A stretch of 64,000 bases of DNA from Lachnospiraceae bacterium. Lineage in GTDB: Bacteria > Bacillota > Clostridia > Lachnospirales > Lachnospiraceae. The translations under genes and the position numbers were made by a program. Below the pieces are notes generated by a model, which was not told the DNA's origin, did no database searches, and worked only from the letters and a program-made list of their open reading frames with translations. Positions 19,710 through 29,308 of this stretch are shown here, piece after piece. The DNA is taken from contig JAQYAV010000052.1 in NCBI GenBank assembly GCA_029338675.1, positions 26,326-90,325 of the forward strand, given 5' to 3'. The first letter of the stretch is position 1. The number at the start of each line of letters is the position of its first letter.

Positions 19710-19868
19710 TAATTATGTCACAATAGTTATAAAAATGTAAAATCCACCATATATATATTTTTAGAGTTTTGCTATAAATGAATTATAGAATTGGAAACGT
19801 GAGTAGATATACTTATTTTGTTAATAGCTATACCTATAGTAAGTTGCTTTTATGAATGGAGGATTTTT

Positions 19869-22577
19869 GTGAGTAAAATTAATTTCTTAAACAATGATGC
19901 GGTTTTTACAATTGATAAGCCTGAAAATCATAGCTATCTATATTTTCCAGTTGCTGGTGAAAAGGGAATAAAGGGCTCGATTACACCTAATTTAGGTGGA
20001 GATATTAAATTAGATCAAAATAGCTTTTTGTTAGAGCCTGTAAGCTCAGAAAATCTTCATAACAACAAGAGCACAAGAAATTTTTGGTGTAAGATTAAGG
20101 ACAAAGGAGCATGGTCTTTAGCTGGTTCTTCTGCGGAACAGGAATTTAAGAAATTTACTGATAAGCAGGATGACAGTAAGCTAGAGGCTGGTTTTATGTG
20201 GCAGAAGCTTACAAGAAAAACAAAGGAGTATGGATTAAAGTCAGAAGTTTTATCCTTTGTTCCAATAGATTATAATGTTGAGCTTATGTTTGTTACTATT
20301 GAGAATATTTCAGAGGAAGCATGTACATTTACTCCTGTAGCAGCAGTTCCTATATATGGAAGAAGTGCTGATAATATAAGAGATCATAGACATGTTACTT
20401 CTTTATTACACAGAATAAAAACTACAGATAATGGTGTTTTAGTTAAACCAACTTTATCCTTTGATGAACGTGGACATAGAAGAAATGAAATTACATATTT
20501 CGTTTGTGGAATAACAGGTAAGGGAAATAATCCGGCTTCATTTTATCCTGTTGTCGAAGATTTTATTGGAGAAGGTGGTTCATTTAGTAATCCTAGAGCA
20601 ATAATGGATAATGCTGAAGGTGTTAAATCAGGATATTCATGTGAAGGAAAAGAGGCATTAGGTGGAATTAAATTTGACGAAGTTACTCTTAATTGTGGAG
20701 AGAAAACAAGCTATATCATCGTAATGGGCGCTACTGATAATTCAGATGATATTGATGAGACAATGAAGTACTACTGTAATGAAGCTAAGGTTTTAGAAGC
20801 AAAACAAAGACTTCAGCTACATTGGAGTAATCAAGTTAATGTTGATTATAAAACTGGAAACAAAGATTTTGATGGTTTTATGAGATGGGTTAGCTTTCAA
20901 CCATTCTTAAGAAGAATATATGGTTGTTCATTCCTTCCACACCATGATTATGGACGTGGCGGAAGAGGTTGGAGAGATTTATGGCAGGACTGCTTGTCTC
21001 TTCTCATTATGGATCCAAGTGGTGTTAGAAGAATGATTGTTGACAATTATGGCGGAGTAAGAGTTGACGGAACAAATGCTACTATTATTGGCTCAAAGCA
21101 GGGTGAATTTATTGCAGATAGAAATGGAATAGCACGTGTTTGGATGGATCATGGTGTTTGGCCTTTTATGACCACAATGCTTTATATTAATCAAACAGGT
21201 GATTTAGATATTCTTAATGAAACTGCTACTTATTTTAAGGATGAGCAAAAAGAAAGAGGCACTGCACTTGATAAAGAATGGAATGAAAGCTACGGTGTAT
21301 TCCAGAAAACTACATCAGGAAATGTATATAAAGGTACTATATTAGAACATATTTTACTTGAACATCTTTGCTCTTTCTACGAGGTTGGTGAGCATAATCA
21401 TATTAAGCTTAGAGGCGCAGATTGGAATGATGCTCTTGATATGGCTGCTACTAATGGAGAAAGTGTTGCCTTTACATGTGCTTATGCAGGCAATTTAAGT
21501 GATATTGCAGATTTACTTTTACGTGCACATAATGAACTAGGATTAGATGAAGTTGAATTTCTTGAAGAAATTGCTATTTTATTAGAAGATGGTGATGATT
21601 TATATAATAGTATTGAAAAAAAGAAAGAGGTACTTTCAAATTATTTATCAAAATGTGGACATTATGTAAGTGGCAACAAAAAGACTGTTAATGTAGTTGA
21701 TTTAGTTAAAAACTTAAAGAGTAAATCTGAATGGATTAAGAAACATATTCGTGATACAGAATGGATTGAAGGACAGGATGACAGTAGGCTTGAAGGATGG
21801 TTTAACAGCTATTATGACGACAACAAAAATAGGGTTGAGGGTTATTTCCCTAATGAAGTAAGAATGATGTTAACTGGACAGGTATTTTCTGTTATGAGTA
21901 AGACTGCTACAAAAGAGCAGGTTGAAAAAATATGTTATTCTGCTGATAAATACCTATATAAGAAGGATATTGGTGGATATAGACTAAACACTAATTTCCA
22001 TGAGGAAAAATTTGATTTTGGAAGAATGTTTGGCTTTGCCTATGGGGAAAAGGAGAATGGAGCTGTATTCTCTCATATGGCAGTAATGTATGCAAATGCA
22101 CTTTATCAAAGAGGCTTTGTTAAGGAAGGATATAAGGCACTTCAGTCCTTAGCTGATCAGGCAATGGATTTTGAAGCTTCAAAGATATATCCAGGAATTC
22201 CAGAGTATTTTGATGGTTCAGGAAGAGGTCTTTATCATTATTTAACTGGTGCTGCTAGTTGGTATATGCTCACTTTTGTAACTGAAGTATTTGGTGTAAA
22301 GGGCGATTTAGGAGATTTGTCAATTGAACCAAAGCTTGTTAAAGAACAATATGATCAGGATAATAAAGCTATTCTTAAATTGAATTTTGGTGGAAATAGG
22401 TTTGAGGTAACAGTTATTAACAAAGATAGCTTGGACTACGGTGAATATAGTATTATTTCTGCTATTTGTAATGATGATATTAAGCTTGAAATTAAGGATA
22501 GCAAGGCATTACTTAGTAAGATGGATATTGCCAAATTAGATAAAGATATTAATAGAATTGAAATCGTATTAGGATAA
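19869..22577 (+). CDS. GH94 family glycoside phosphorylase (~900 aa; laminaribiose/beta-glucan phosphorylase candidate)
   Basis: GH94 motifs GRGGRGWRDLWQDCLSLL, RGADWNDALDMA, GMFG-like FGFAYGEKENGAVFSHM, YPGIPEYF; GTG start preceded by tggagga. Confidence 0.82.
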   Translation: MSKINFLNNDAVFTIDKPENHSYLYFPVAGEKGIKGSITPNLGGDIKLDQNSFLLEPVSSENLHNNKSTRNFWCKIKDKGAWSLAGSSAEQEFKKFTDKQDDSKLEAGFMWQKLTRKTKEYGLKSEVLSFVPIDYNVELMFVTIENISEEACTFTPVAAVPIYGRSADNIRDHRHVTSLLHRIKTTDNGVLVKPTLSFDERGHRRNEITYFVCGITGKGNNPASFYPVVEDFIGEGGSFSNPRAIMDNAEGVKSGYSCEGKEALGGIKFDEVTLNCGEKTSYIIVMGATDNSDDIDETMKYYCNEAKVLEAKQRLQLHWSNQVNVDYKTGNKDFDGFMRWVSFQPFLRRIYGCSFLPHHDYGRGGRGWRDLWQDCLSLLIMDPSGVRRMIVDNYGGVRVDGTNATIIGSKQGEFIADRNGIARVWMDHGVWPFMTTMLYINQTGDLDILNETATYFKDEQKERGTALDKEWNESYGVFQKTTSGNVYKGTILEHILLEHLCSFYEVGEHNHIKLRGADWNDALDMAATNGESVAFTCAYAGNLSDIADLLLRAHNELGLDEVEFLEEIAILLEDGDDLYNSIEKKKEVLSNYLSKCGHYVSGNKKTVNVVDLVKNLKSKSEWIKKHIRDTEWIEGQDDSRLEGWFNSYYDDNKNRVEGYFPNEVRMMLTGQVFSVMSKTATKEQVEKICYSADKYLYKKDIGGYRLNTNFHEEKFDFGRMFGFAYGEKENGAVFSHMAVMYANALYQRGFVKEGYKALQSLADQAMDFEASKIYPGIPEYFDGSGRGLYHYLTGAASWYMLTFVTEVFGVKGDLGDLSIEPKLVKEQYDQDNKAILKLNFGGNRFEVTVINKDSLDYGEYSIISAICNDDIKLEIKDSKALLSKMDIAKLDKDINRIEIVLG

Positions 22578-22608
22578 TTAATTTATATTGTAGGAGGGAA
22601 AATATAGT

Positions 22609-25023
22609 ATGAAATTTGGATATTTCGACAATGAAAAACGTGAATATGTAATCACAAACCCTAAGACACCAGCTCCATGGGCAAATTATTTGGGATCACC
22701 TGAATATGGTGCATTAATTTCTAACAATGCAGGTGGATATAGTTTTGCAAAATCAGGTGCAAATGGAAGAATTTTAAGATATGTATTTAATAATTTCGAC
22801 CAGCCTGGCAGATATATTTATATTAGAGATAATGCCAGTAAAGACTATTGGTCTGCATCTTGGCAACCAGTTGGTAAGGATTTAAATGAATATAAGAATG
22901 AGTGTCATCATGGTACTGCATATACAAGGATAATTTCTGATTATAGCAATATTCATACTGAGGCATTATATTATGTGCCACTTAATAAATCTCATGAGGT
23001 ATGGAATTTAAAGATTACTAATAAGGATAGTGTTAAGAGAACACTTACAGTTACTGGTTATGCAGAATTTACTAATAACAGTAATTATGAGCAGGATCAG
23101 GTTAATCTTCAGTATTCAATGTTTATTTCAAGAACAAACTTCGTTGAGAATAGAATTAGACAGACTGTTCATGGAAACCTAGATACACTTCCAGAAGGAA
23201 AATATATTGACGAAAAGAGAGCTACTGATAGAATATTTGGTCTAGCAGGAGCTAAAGTATCATCTTACTGTGGCGATAAGGAAGCATTTATTGGCAGATG
23301 TAATGGTTATGGAAATCCAGATGGAGTTGTAAATGGTGATTTAGGTAATGTATTAAGCTATAACGAAAATTCATGTGGCGCACTTGCTACAGTCATTGAG
23401 ATTGAACCAAATGAAACAAAAGAAATTGCATTTGTACTTGGACTTAAAGAAAATGATGAAGCAAAGGCTATTATGGATAGTTATGCAAATCCTTCTGCAA
23501 TATGTGAAAAAGAGCTTGAAGAGCTTATTTCATATTGGCATGGCCAGTTATCACATTTCCAGGTTAAGACACCAAGTGAAGAGTTTAATACAATGATAAA
23601 TACTTGGAATGCATATAACTGTTTTATGACTTTCATTTGGTCAAGAGCTGCTTCTTTTATATACTGTGGACTTAGAAATGGATATGGGTATAGAGATACA
23701 GTTCAGGATATTCAGGGTGTGATTCATTTAGCTCCAGAAATGGCTGTCGAGAAGATAAGATTTATGTTATCAGCGCAGGTTGATAATGGTGGTGGTTTAC
23801 CACTTGTTAAATTCACTCATAATGCAGGACATGAGGATACTCCTGATGACGCTTCATATGTAAAAGAAACTGGTCATCCTGCATATAGAGCAGATGATGC
23901 ATTGTGGTTATTCCCTACAGTTTACAAATATGTTTCTGAATCAGGTAATATGGACTTTATTGACGAGGTTATTCCGTATGCTAATAAGGATGAGGGAACA
24001 GTATATAATCATTTACAAAGAGCAATAGAATTTTCTATGAATCACCTTGGTCCACATGGTATGCCTGCTGGGTTATATGCAGATTGGAATGATTGTCTTA
24101 GACTTGGTAAGGATGGAGAGTCTTCATTTGTAGCTTTACAGTTTTACCTTGGAATGACAATTTTAAGAAAATTTGCAGAATATAAGAAGGATGAAGAGTA
24201 TATCAAATATCTTGATGAAAGTCAGGAAAAGCTAGGTAAATTAATTCAGGATTTATGCTGGAATGAGGATAGATTCATTAGAGGCTTCACGGAAAAGGGT
24301 GAGGTTATTGGTAAGAGAGATGATGTGGAGGCTAATATGTGGCTTAATCCACAGAGCTGGTCTGTAATTAGTGGTTTTGCATCAGATAAGCAGGCTGATT
24401 TGGCTCTTGATAATGTTTATAAGCAGTTGAATACTACGTTTGGTGCAGTTCTTATGGATCCGCCATATCATGAGCATGCATTTGATGGAGCATTAGCTGT
24501 AATATATAATCAGGGTGTGAAAGAAAATGCAGGTATATTCTCTCAATCTCAAGGCTGGATAATTCTTGCAGAAGCATTACGTGGACATGGAGAGCGAGCT
24601 TTTCAGTACTTTATAGAAAATTCACCTGCTGCTCAAAATGATAAAGCAGAAATTAGAAAGCTTGAGCCATATTGCTATGGTCAGTTTACAGAAGGTAAGG
24701 CAAGTCCTCATTTTGGACGTTCTCATGTACATTGGTTAACTGGTACTGCATCCACAGTAATGGTTGGATGTGTTGAAGGTATAATGGGTATGAGACCAGA
24801 TTTCTACGGCTTAAAGATTGCACCTGCTATTCCAGCTACATGGGATGGTTTTGAAATTGAAAAGGACTTTAGAGGAAAGCATTTACATATAGAAGTCAAA
24901 AATCCAGGACATGTTGAGTCTGGATGCAAGAAGCTTATAGTTAACGGAAAAGAAATTGAAGGTAACTATGTTAAAGAAGAACTTATGACTGATAATACAG
25001 ATATTGTGTTGTATATGTCATAA
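22609..25023 (+). CDS. GH94 family glycoside phosphorylase (cellobiose / chitobiose phosphorylase-like)
   Basis: MKFGYFDNEKREYVITNPKTPAPWANYLGSPEYGALISNNAGGYSF, GYRDTVQDIQGV, YADWNDCLRLG, HWLTGTAS; SD taggaggg. Confidence 0.9.
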   Translation: MKFGYFDNEKREYVITNPKTPAPWANYLGSPEYGALISNNAGGYSFAKSGANGRILRYVFNNFDQPGRYIYIRDNASKDYWSASWQPVGKDLNEYKNECHHGTAYTRIISDYSNIHTEALYYVPLNKSHEVWNLKITNKDSVKRTLTVTGYAEFTNNSNYEQDQVNLQYSMFISRTNFVENRIRQTVHGNLDTLPEGKYIDEKRATDRIFGLAGAKVSSYCGDKEAFIGRCNGYGNPDGVVNGDLGNVLSYNENSCGALATVIEIEPNETKEIAFVLGLKENDEAKAIMDSYANPSAICEKELEELISYWHGQLSHFQVKTPSEEFNTMINTWNAYNCFMTFIWSRAASFIYCGLRNGYGYRDTVQDIQGVIHLAPEMAVEKIRFMLSAQVDNGGGLPLVKFTHNAGHEDTPDDASYVKETGHPAYRADDALWLFPTVYKYVSESGNMDFIDEVIPYANKDEGTVYNHLQRAIEFSMNHLGPHGMPAGLYADWNDCLRLGKDGESSFVALQFYLGMTILRKFAEYKKDEEYIKYLDESQEKLGKLIQDLCWNEDRFIRGFTEKGEVIGKRDDVEANMWLNPQSWSVISGFASDKQADLALDNVYKQLNTTFGAVLMDPPYHEHAFDGALAVIYNQGVKENAGIFSQSQGWIILAEALRGHGERAFQYFIENSPAAQNDKAEIRKLEPYCYGQFTEGKASPHFGRSHVHWLTGTASTVMVGCVEGIMGMRPDFYGLKIAPAIPATWDGFEIEKDFRGKHLHIEVKNPGHVESGCKKLIVNGKEIEGNYVKEELMTDNTDIVLYMS

Positions 25024-26109: not shown

Positions 26110-26235
26110 ATGTACGTGAAAATAGTAGGAGGAAAGGGATTGTGGCCAGCTGCATGGATGATGCCTACTGATGAAAGCTATTATGGACAATGGCCAAAGT
26201 GTGGCGAGATTGATATTATGGAAACGATAAATTGA
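26110..26235 (+). pseudogene. remnant of GH16-family beta-glucanase catalytic core
   Basis: Frame reads MYVKIVGGKGLWPAAWMMPTDESYYGQWPKCGEIDIMETIN*, containing the GH16 signature W..GEIDIME; no further homologous sequence either side. Confidence 0.75.
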
Positions 26236-26326: not shown

Positions 26327-27403
26327 ATGATAAATTTTACAGTAGGACCAGTTCAATCAAGCGAAGTGGTAAAAACAGTAGGTGCATTGGACGTTCCATA
26401 TTTTAGAACACCTGAATTTTCAGAACTAATGCTTGACAACGAGAGAAGAATTAAGGAATTAGCCAAGGCAGATAACTCTTCAAGAGTTGTTTTTATTACT
26501 GGTTCTGGTACAGCATCAATGGAAGCTGCTGTTATGAATATTTTCACAAAAAATGATAAGGTTTTGGTTATTAATGGTGGAAGCTTTGGACAAAGATTTG
26601 TTGACATATGTAATATTCACGAAATACCATGCGATGTTCTTAAGCTTAATGTAGGACAAGCACTTACAAGCGATATGCTTGACGTATATAATAACAAAGG
26701 ATATGCAGGTCTTTTGGTTAACATACATGAAACTTCTACAGGAGTACATTATGATGGTAAATTATTAAGTGATTTCTGTAAGAAGAATAATATGTTATAT
26801 ATTGTTGATGCAATTAGCTCTTTTATTGCTGACGAACTTAATGTAAAGGAGCTTGGAATTGATGTTATGATAACTGGCTCACAGAAGGCTTTAGCCTGTC
26901 CTCCAGGTATTTCTCTTATATTAATGTCAAGTAAAGTAGTGGAAATCATTCAAAATAATAATGTTAAATCTTTGTATTTTGATTTAAAGGATGCATTAAA
27001 GAATGCAGAAAGAGGTCAGACTCCTTTTACACCTGCAGTTGGTACACTTATTCAAATTAATGAGAGACTTAAAGAAATTGATAGCAAAGGTGGATTGGAA
27101 AAAGAACAGGAGTACATTGCAAGCCTTGCTAAGAATTTTAGAGAGGGAATTAAGGATTTACCTTTAGATATATGTTCTGAAAGCTTGTCAAATGCTGTTA
27201 CACCAGTAGCAACAAGAAATTGTTCAGCATATGATTTGTTTATGATTCTTAAGGATGAATATGGAATTTGGATTTGTCCTAATGGTGGAGCATTAAAAGA
27301 TAAGGTATTTAGAGTTGGTCATATTGGTAATTTATCTATGGAAGATAACAAGTGCCTAATAGATGCGTTACATGACCTTTTTGATAGAGGAATACTTAAA
27401 TAA
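26327..27403 (+). CDS. class V aminotransferase family protein (AEP transaminase / alanine-glyoxylate aminotransferase-like)
   Basis: [54 protein letters not shown] (PLP Lys). Confidence 0.88.
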
Positions 27404-27424
27404 CATTAAGTGAGGAAGTATTGT

Positions 27425-28768
27425 ATGAAAAAAGTCATTACATATGGAACATATGATATGATTCATTATGGCCATATTAGATTATTGGAAAGAGCAAAAG
27501 CTTTAGGGGACTATCTTATTGTTGGGGTAACTGCTGATGATTTTGATAAAACACGTGGAAAGATTAATGTACATCAGTCACTTAGTGAGCGAATAGAAGC
27601 AATAAGAGCAACTGGTATAGCTGATGAAATAATTGTTGAAGAATATGAAGGTCAGAAAATTGACGACATAAGAAAGTATGATATAGATATTTTCACTGTT
27701 GGTTCGGATTGGAAAGGCCATTTTGACTATTTAAATGCATATTGTAAGGTGGTTTATCTAGAAAGAACAGAAGGTATTTCAAGTTCAGAAATACGTGAAA
27801 AGAAAAGGTCGGTTAAGCTTGGCATTGTTGGAAATGATAAATATCTTAATAAGGTTTTTACAGAAACGGAGTTTGTTAATGGAATAACTGTTTCTGGAAT
27901 ATGTTCAGATAATCCAGTTAACTTATCTAAAATAGTTAATAAAGCACCAGTGGTTACAGAAAGCTACGACGAGATATTAGAATTGTCAGACGCAGTATAT
28001 ATTCATTCAATACCTAATCTACATTATGAGCAAGTGAAGAAGGCGCTTCTTAAAGGAAAGCATGTGCTATGCGAATCGCCCATTGCATATAATAAACAAC
28101 AGTATTTAGAACTCTTTGATCTTGCAAAAGAAAAAGGTCTTATTTTAACTGAGGCACTTAGAACTGCGTATTCAACTGCATATCATAGATTGCAACTATT
28201 GGTTAGTGCAGGAAAGATAGGTGAGGTTGTCTCTGTTGACGCTGTATGTACTAGTTTGTTAGATGAAGTTAAAAAAGATAAAGAATATCTAAAAAAAGAG
28301 TGGAGTAGTATTACTGCTTGGGGACCAACTGCATTGCTTCCTGTTTTTCAGATTTTAGGAACTGATTATAAGGATATAAGATTTGTAACAAATTTTATAG
28401 ACGAAGAAATAGATTTTGATGGCTTTACAAATATATCTCTTATATATCCTAAAGCGGTTGCGTCTGTAAAAGTTGGTAATGGTGTAAAATCAGAGGGGCA
28501 GCTTATAATATCTGGAACAAATGGATATATTTTTGTGCCTGCTCCATGGTGGAAAACAGATTATTTTGAAATTAGATATGAAAATCCAACAGAAAATAAA
28601 CGATATTTTTACCAGTTAGATGGTGAAGGAATTCGATATGAATTAGCAGACTTTATTAAATCTATTGAAAGTGGAAAGGATAGTCTTTTTATTGATAAAG
28701 AGGTTTCTTTGGAAATAGCTAATGTTATGGATATGTTTGTTGGACATAAGAATATGACTATAATCTAA
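27425..28768 (+). CDS. fusion protein: N-terminal cytidylyltransferase + C-terminal Gfo/Idh/MocA oxidoreductase
   Basis: MKKVITYGTYDMIHYGHIRLLERAKALGDYLIVGV (HxGH), RTEGISSSEIR (cytidylyltransferase signature), then LGIVGNDKYLN...AVYIHSIPNLHYEQVKKALLKGKHVLCESPIAYN (Gfo/Idh/MocA NAD-binding). Confidence 0.9.
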   Translation: MKKVITYGTYDMIHYGHIRLLERAKALGDYLIVGVTADDFDKTRGKINVHQSLSERIEAIRATGIADEIIVEEYEGQKIDDIRKYDIDIFTVGSDWKGHFDYLNAYCKVVYLERTEGISSSEIREKKRSVKLGIVGNDKYLNKVFTETEFVNGITVSGICSDNPVNLSKIVNKAPVVTESYDEILELSDAVYIHSIPNLHYEQVKKALLKGKHVLCESPIAYNKQQYLELFDLAKEKGLILTEALRTAYSTAYHRLQLLVSAGKIGEVVSVDAVCTSLLDEVKKDKEYLKKEWSSITAWGPTALLPVFQILGTDYKDIRFVTNFIDEEIDFDGFTNISLIYPKAVASVKVGNGVKSEGQLIISGTNGYIFVPAPWWKTDYFEIRYENPTENKRYFYQLDGEGIRYELADFIKSIESGKDSLFIDKEVSLEIANVMDMFVGHKNMTII

Positions 28769-28783
28769 AGCAGGAGAAGTATT

Positions 28784-29251
28784 ATGTCAAAAATAAAAAT
28801 TATTAAGAAAAATGATGAATTCTCAAGTGAGTATGAAATTGGTGATGTTTTTGAAATAAAAGGTACTTGGTATGGAGGCGTTCATATTGAAGGAAAAACT
28901 GGAGTACCTGTATCCTTAGATAATGATGAATATGAGGAGCTTTCTGAAACAATAAATCAGTCAAAGGATGATTCGATTTATAAAGATAATGTTTATGAAA
29001 ACTCAAGAATTAATGTGGGTGATATTGTTAAACATTTTAAAAGAGAATGGATAAAGGAAGACAATTCCCAGTATTTATATAAGGTTTTGGCTTTTGCAAG
29101 TCATTCTGAAACAGGTGAAAAACTAGTGATTTATCAAGGCTTATATGCTCCATTTAAAATATGTGCAAGACCATATGACATGTTTATGAGTAAAGTGGAT
29201 AAATATAAATATCCAGATATTATTCAAGAATACAGATTCGAAAAGATATAA
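28784..29251 (+). CDS. DUF1653-like C-terminal domain protein with extra N-terminal ~65 aa
   Basis: [12 protein letters not shown]...[23 protein letters not shown]...[12 protein letters not shown]. Confidence 0.65.
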
Positions 29252-29257
29252 AACAAA

Positions 29258-29308
29258 AAGCTTCAAAAAAGAATTTAAGATTTTTATTCTTTTTTGAAAC
29301 TTTTTTTT
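29258..29308 (+). terminator. rho-independent terminator
   Basis: gcttcaaaaaagaat / attcttttttgaaac followed by tttttttt. Confidence 0.75.

Follow-up and report, generated by a model that had tools for sequence, protein, structure and literature searches.

A gene pair for a putative CDP-activated amino-alcohol: a class V aminotransferase and a cytidylyltransferase-Gfo/Idh/MocA fusion in gut and rumen bacteria

Introduction

What might be made by a gene pair in which a class V aminotransferase is followed by a protein that joins a cytidylyltransferase to an oxidoreductase-like domain? Such a pair lies in a 64,000-nucleotide stretch of DNA from a Lachnospiraceae bacterium, here called the window, to which all coordinates given without a locus name refer. 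The original prediction proposed that the two proteins make a CMP-linked amino-alcohol, amino-polyol or phosphonate from an oxidised precursor. The use of CDP-activated alcohol phosphates for glycan decoration is a known kind of system, and the combination of an aminotransferase with a Gfo-fused cytidylyltransferase is a variation on it. We regard it as moderately likely that the module supplies a CDP-activated amino-alcohol, probably based on serinol, for the decoration of surface polysaccharides. We hold more tentatively to the wider picture of a CDP-serinol (or CDP-amino-alcohol) branch which is spread over several phyla, uses two interchangeable aminotransferase families and has turned its fused Gfo domain to a non-redox role.

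The gene pair

The first gene (26327..27403, plus strand) is a complete open reading frame of 358 aa for a class V (fold type I) PLP aminotransferase, which we call AT5 (Pfam Aminotran_5, E 8e-24). Its PLP lysine Lys187, in the sequence GSQKAL, as well as Asp161 and Arg329 are invariant in 41 relatives, and an alignment to 9kk8 identifies Arg329 as the substrate arginine. The nearest solved structure, 3f0h (E 7e-140), bears the title 'Aminotransferase' only. For the second gene, the open reading frame list gives a start at GTG 27410. A ribosome-binding site read from the sequence, GAGGAAG (27412..27418, plus strand), lies 6 nt 5' of ATG 27425 and favours this codon as the start, which gives a gap of 21 bp between the genes and a 447-aa product (27425..28768, plus strand). 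Both reading frames are intact and have ribosome-binding sites. The Pfam matches and the ATG start thus bear out the predicted gene order and spacing.

The cytidylyltransferase (CT) domain of the fusion (27425..27820, plus strand; Pfam CTP_transf_like, PF01467, E 2e-21) has the previously quoted motifs HYGH (residues 14-17) and RTEGISSSEIR intact, and H14, G16, H17, R114, T115, S119 and S120 are invariant across 52 fusion orthologues. The nearest solved structures are the TagD-type glycerol-3-phosphate cytidylyltransferases 2b7l (E 1e-37) and 1coz (E 9e-37), and the next nearest solved family is ethanolamine-phosphate cytidylyltransferase (3elb, E 1e-16). The fusion shares with TagD/TarD the CT domain, the HxGH and RTEGIS motifs and likely the chemistry of CTP with a three-carbon phosphate. 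It differs from them in being fused to a Gfo/Idh/MocA domain, in being paired with an aminotransferase and in scoring 116.7 bits against the TagD/TarD model TIGR01518, below the curated equivalog cut-off of 165.4. Because of this score, the substrate of the CT domain may differ from that of TagD more than supposed.

Distribution and neighbourhoods

Of 150 Lachnospiraceae genomes, 14 contain full-length fusions, as do 5 of the 37 genomes of the window's genus. Among the matches listed, they come from Bacillota, Bacteroidota, Spirochaetota, Elusimicrobiota, Actinomycetota, Planctomycetota and Verrucomicrobiota, mostly from MAGs. A search seeded with AT5 matched 8 of the 150 Lachnospiraceae genomes, with six matches adjoining a fusion. 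Of 88 fusion loci, 73 have an aminotransferase gene next to the fusion or close by, in most cases immediately upstream of it and separated by 3-50 nt. The pair is no local curiosity: by its neighbourhoods, AT5 and the fusion are a conserved functional unit, and the cassette is apparently widespread in gut and rumen bacteria and undescribed, with no description of the fusion found in the literature searched.

Most of the fusion neighbourhoods are surface-polysaccharide loci, and a LicD gene is present in 37 of the 50 aminotransferase-type loci of at least 15 kb. On pRUMAL01 of Ruminococcus albus 7 the genes are arranged as LicD-AT5-fusion-LicD-GNAT-LicD between Wzy and Wzx genes, the annotated flanks being an O-antigen polymerase before the first LicD and a glycosyltransferase, a pyruvyl transferase and a flippase after the last; the AT5-fusion pair of this strain has the accessions WP_013483592 and WP_013483593. 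As had been noted for the window, no LicD, teichoic acid or PEP mutase gene is adjacent to the pair there. Nor does a gene for another transferase that could act on the activated product adjoin it. Elsewhere in the same genome (2.85 Mb, 171 contigs, 99.97% complete), other contigs carry three intact LicD genes and a LicD fragment as well as four Glyphos_transf genes. Further CDP-alcohol gene sets in this genome, on contigs C83 (3611-6697 of locus L160) and C127 (8304-14141 of locus L161), lie near Glyphos_transf genes and consist of an IspD-type cytidylyltransferase and an SDR, a pair of the CDP-6-glucitol/mannitol type (PMC10918830).

AT5 can also pair with a second, unrelated kind of cytidylyltransferase, since in one genome (G051; L159, 6251-11570) it adjoins a LicC-like enzyme without the fusion, near a TagF-like protein; PEP mutase is absent from this genome. 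The same locus encodes a 681-aa YidC-type insertase fused to a Glyphos_transf-like domain. Among 16 relatives in IMG/VR, two are full fusions. One virus-classed contig (IMGVR_UViG_3300046370_000585, 5001-6990) holds a full fusion (40% identity) that is closely preceded by another gene for a TagD-like cytidylyltransferase; no aminotransferase gene occurs in this stretch.

The aminotransferase and its likely product

The partner of the fusion is a class V enzyme in 47 of the 88 loci, a HisC-like enzyme in 26 and a TPP enzyme in three, and 12 loci have none. When the class V label is mapped on the fusion tree, it has to change 24 times, and well-supported branches force at least 10 of these changes. 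Sister pairs such as L063/L105 and L088/L099 differ in aminotransferase type, with the caveats that L088 carries an additional class V gene farther upstream and that the upstream side of L040 is truncated. Among the genus-mates of the window, a class V partner is found in G229 and a HisC-type one in G224 and G205. Since the two unrelated types have repeatedly replaced each other, class V and HisC-like enzymes probably feed equivalent products to the fusion.

The substrate of HisC is imidazole-acetol phosphate, a derivative of DHAP, and serinol phosphate is glycerol-3-phosphate, the substrate of TagD itself, with an amino group in place of the 2-hydroxyl. The conversion of DHAP to serinol phosphate is our leading guess for the aminotransferase step, because HisC acts on an acetol phosphate and Cj1437 of Campylobacter jejuni uses DHAP. 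Cj1437 is reported to convert DHAP to (S)-serinol phosphate for the capsule (PMC11800397). In the pathway that we propose, AT5 would take the amino group of an amino acid and transfer it to a phosphorylated carbonyl compound of central metabolism, most likely DHAP; the amino-alcohol phosphate so formed would most likely be serinol phosphate. The CT domain, judging by its intact TagD-type active site, would then couple this product to CTP to give CDP-serinol or a close relative. The neighbourhoods further suggest that a transferase of the LicD family, or less often a TagF-like one, would pass the amino-alcohol phosphate to a glycan; for the organism of the window, the gene for this transferase would lie elsewhere in the genome.

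The complete catalytic motifs of both the aminotransferase and the cytidylyltransferase argue for a CDP-amino-alcohol as the product, which was also the best of the options first proposed. Weighing against it are the low TIGR01518 score, the lack of an adjacent transferase gene in the window, the three TPP loci and a decarboxylase gene in G229 that is described below. One genome (G071; L055, 9599-11065) encodes a 488-aa fusion of an NAD-dependent glycerol-3-phosphate dehydrogenase and a TagD-type cytidylyltransferase, which apparently leads from DHAP to CDP-glycerol in a single protein. As a non-amino counterpart that also starts from DHAP, it supports the DHAP-based reading.

Ethanolamine phosphate or another 2-amino-alcohol phosphate fits nearly as well as serinol phosphate. 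A route in which AT5 converts glycolaldehyde phosphate to ethanolamine phosphate and the fusion makes CDP-ethanolamine for LicD is possible, though we think it unlikely. The neighbourhood evidence is the same as for CDP-serinol, and after TagD/TarD the solved structures closest to the CT domain are those of the 3elb family. The profile nearest to AT5 is that of AEP transaminase (TIGR03301, PhnW/AepZ), whose substrate phosphonoacetaldehyde is one oxygen away from glycolaldehyde phosphate. AT5 resembles AEP transaminases in its class V fold, Lys187 and Arg329; its score of 169.8 bits lies below the cut-off of 360.8. Yet glycolaldehyde phosphate is no main metabolite and the module has no enzyme to make it, the CT domain is far closer to TagD/TarD than to ethanolamine-phosphate cytidylyltransferase (E 1e-37 against 1e-16), and DHAP is better suited to the HisC-type alternates.

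A decarboxylation of the CobD type was considered and rejected, as the HisC-like alternates are nearer to HisC than to CobD. Likewise, a GHMP kinase beside a HisC-type pair, a candidate threonine/serine kinase for a CobD-like route, proved to be IspE among housekeeping genes. In the TPP variant (L043, L090 and L098), an acetolactate-synthase-like enzyme takes the place of the aminotransferase; a DRE-TIM aldolase gene is found nearby in L043 and L090 and an Fe-ADH gene in L043, and LicD is absent from all three loci. Because of this replacement, the fusion family is not always tied to amino compounds.

The oxidoreductase-like domain

The C-terminal part of the fusion (27821..28768, plus strand) matches Pfam GFO_IDH_MocA (E 5e-15). 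Its AF2 model (pLDDT 90) has a Rossmann fold and a C-terminal alpha/beta fold, and Foldseek matches it to 2o48, 3e9m and KijD10 with target TM scores of 0.81-0.86. The dinucleotide-binding motif is degenerate (27821..27850, plus strand; GIVGNDKYLN against the ancestral GIIGTGRIA), and residues 217-219 (28073..28081, plus strand) read ESP instead of the catalytic EKP of the family. Of 88 fusions, only 6 keep the catalytic lysine and only 18 the second glycine of GxGxxA. Six deep-clade fusions retain both the EKP and GxGRIA motifs, a second group retains the glycine motif with ETP or EIP in place of EKP, and the main group, to which the window belongs, has lost both. Because of the loss of the catalytic lysine and the nucleotide-binding glycines, the Gfo domain in the window's lineage is probably no working dehydrogenase and a redox role seems unlikely, so that the earlier argument for an oxidised precursor is not supported. 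Loss of the lysine alone is no proof of inactivity, since among Gfo-fold proteins without it biliverdin reductase is active; Gal80, which also lacks it, is a non-enzyme.

Could the redox step nevertheless take place on the nucleotide? The CT domain would then make CDP-glycerol or a CDP-polyol, the Gfo domain would oxidise it to a CDP-ketone and the aminotransferase would give a CDP-amino-polyol. The domain make-up of the fusion speaks for such a route, and so does the pairing of a Gfo dehydrogenase with an aminotransferase, which is classical in the UDP-GlcNAc 3-dehydrogenase/GnnB-type routes to UDP-amino-sugars; GnnA is among the fold matches. In addition, the Gfo domain is under purifying selection (dN/dS was about 0.05 and 0.18 in the two pairs that gave usable values, synonymous sites being saturated in most others), with invariant residues in the orthologue alignment that include P374-W375-W376, G402 and R404. 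Against it stand the loss of the lysine in 82 of 88 fusions and of the second glycine in 70, in both cases including the window's. Moreover, an aminotransferase neighbours 2 of the 6 lysine-bearing fusions compared with 71 of the 82 lysine-less ones (Fisher p 0.007, phylogenetically confounded), and the neighbour table of fusion loci shows no further dehydrogenase gene that is found repeatedly next to the pair. We consider this route rather improbable. For the proposed CDP-amino-alcohol module, the Gfo domain has probably been retained for a binding, structural or regulatory role, or for another reaction.

The deep-clade fusions are linked more to genes for glycerophosphodiester phosphodiesterase (GDPD) than to aminotransferases, and for this reason the fusion may originally have served another CDP-alcohol route. 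Free GDPD genes lie close to EKP-type fusions in L050, L051 and L206, and a related Gfo domain is itself fused to GDPD in L053 (9948-11804) and L054 (8130-10046). Beside EKP-type fusions there are also 850-aa proteins (L049, 6723-9263; L050; L051) that look TagF-like by eye; the one in L049 has no match to a Pfam or NCBIfam family.

The orphan position of the pair

The pair of the window stands alone, away from LicD and glycosyltransferase genes. Directly before AT5 we recognised from the sequence a remnant of a GH16 glucanase gene (26116..26235, plus strand; 40 codons, ..LWPAAWMMPTDESYYGQWPKCGEIDIMET..). Genus-mates have an intact GH16 gene (L195-L198), in several cases close to the same AraC gene, which suggests that the pair took the place of the GH16 gene in the window's organism. 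Two tandem GH94 phosphorylase-type genes further 5' (19818-25023) belong to a region that is matched across the genus and is unrelated to the pair. On the other side, 15 bp 3' of the fusion, a gene for a DUF1653-domain protein (28784..29251, plus strand; PF07866, E 9e-18) is possibly co-transcribed with the pair; this neighbour is not conserved in the other fusion loci of the neighbour table. It is followed by a terminator-like inverted repeat with an A+T-rich stem, TTCAAAAAAGAAT...ATTCTTTTTTGAA, and then a T run (29262..29308, plus strand), which was seen by eye and is absent from the scan output. A promoter scan gave no more sites than in shuffled sequence.

The orphan position and the adjacent GH16 remnant, together with the presence of the pair in only five of the 37 genus genomes, could indicate that a capsule locus has been lost and that the pair is what remains of it, conserved while its function drifts. 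This is improbable in our view, given that the reading frames are intact, have ribosome-binding sites and encode complete active-site motifs in both the aminotransferase and the cytidylyltransferase. In several other genomes, HisC-type pairs are also found amid housekeeping genes (ispE, D-Ala ligase, murI).

The phosphonate question

The original prediction left open a phosphonate product. The only PF13714 match in the window genome is a sub-threshold one to a PanB-type protein beside PanC, so this 99.97% complete genome has no PEP mutase, and none above the cut-off was found in the six AT5 genomes of the Lachnospiraceae sample (the window's and five others). Among 39 further AT5-module genomes, 10 have a strong match. 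Taken together, the 45 AT5-module genomes, with the window's included, G229 left out and many being incomplete MAGs, comprise 34 without PEP mutase, 10 with a strong match and one with a doubtful fragment. The exception is the genus-mate G229, in which the pair is followed after 16 bp by a phosphonopyruvate decarboxylase gene (410 bits, above the cut-off), and another contig carries both a PEP mutase gene and an Fe-ADH-like gene.

The PEP mutases of AT5-module genomes, G229 among them, often lie in a frame long enough for a cytidylyltransferase domain of their own, and PEP mutase-cytidylyltransferase fusions are known (PMC6697681). Four loci hold a separate class V aminotransferase that is 24-26% identical to AT5. 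The two tested, from the Bacteroidales loci L066 and L071, are true AEP transaminases with 468 and 471 bits, compared with 153 bits for the module's own AT5 in L071. That AT5 makes 2-aminoethylphosphonate and the fusion CMP-AEP is therefore very improbable, despite the resemblance of AT5 to AEP transaminases, the genes of G229 and the PEP mutases of the 10 genomes. For the window genome a phosphonate route is excluded, barring a PEP mutase outside the known family, and it is unlikely in general.

Comparison with known systems and significance

The closest parallels each differ from the module in at least one component. PntC of Treponema denticola (6pd1; PMC6697681) is likewise a cytidylyltransferase that is coupled with a class V aminotransferase and activates a small amino-phosphorus compound, but it is a LicC-type NTP transferase acting on AEP beside PEP mutase, whereas the module of the window has the TagD-type fold (PF01467) and no PEP mutase. 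The C. jejuni capsule enzymes Cj1437/Cj1436 (PMC11800397) and RtxA (PMC3222319) are PLP enzymes that convert DHAP to serinol phosphate or phosphoserine to ethanolamine phosphate. In C. jejuni, an amidoligase attaches the serinol phosphate and no CDP activation is involved; the window's aminotransferase, in contrast, is a class V enzyme. The CDP-polyol synthases Bcs1/TarIJ and HS5.18/HS5.17 (CDP-6-D-glucitol; PMC10918830) also join an oxidoreductase and a cytidylyltransferase to produce a CDP-alcohol for capsule or teichoic acid. Their cytidylyltransferases are of the IspD type and their reductases are active, whereas the fusion of the window has a TagD-type CT domain with a degenerate Gfo domain and is accompanied by an aminotransferase. 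In the LicC/LicD phosphocholine pathway a CDP-activated amino-alcohol phosphate is passed to LicD, as we propose for the module. Its cytidylyltransferase has another fold, however, and the module has no choline kinase and would obtain its amino-alcohol by transamination.

Surface glycans can become zwitterionic through nucleotide-activated amino-alcohols, and this affects the recognition of the bacterium by the immune system and by phages. For most members of the fusion family, the annotation 'oxidoreductase' is probably misleading. If our reading is correct, it predicts the nucleotide CDP-serinol; neither CDP-serinol nor CDP-alaninol was found in the literature searched. The gene pair would then also serve as a sequence marker for CDP-amino-alcohol modification in Segatella copri, Collinsella, Ruminococcus albus, Lachnospiraceae and Prevotella.
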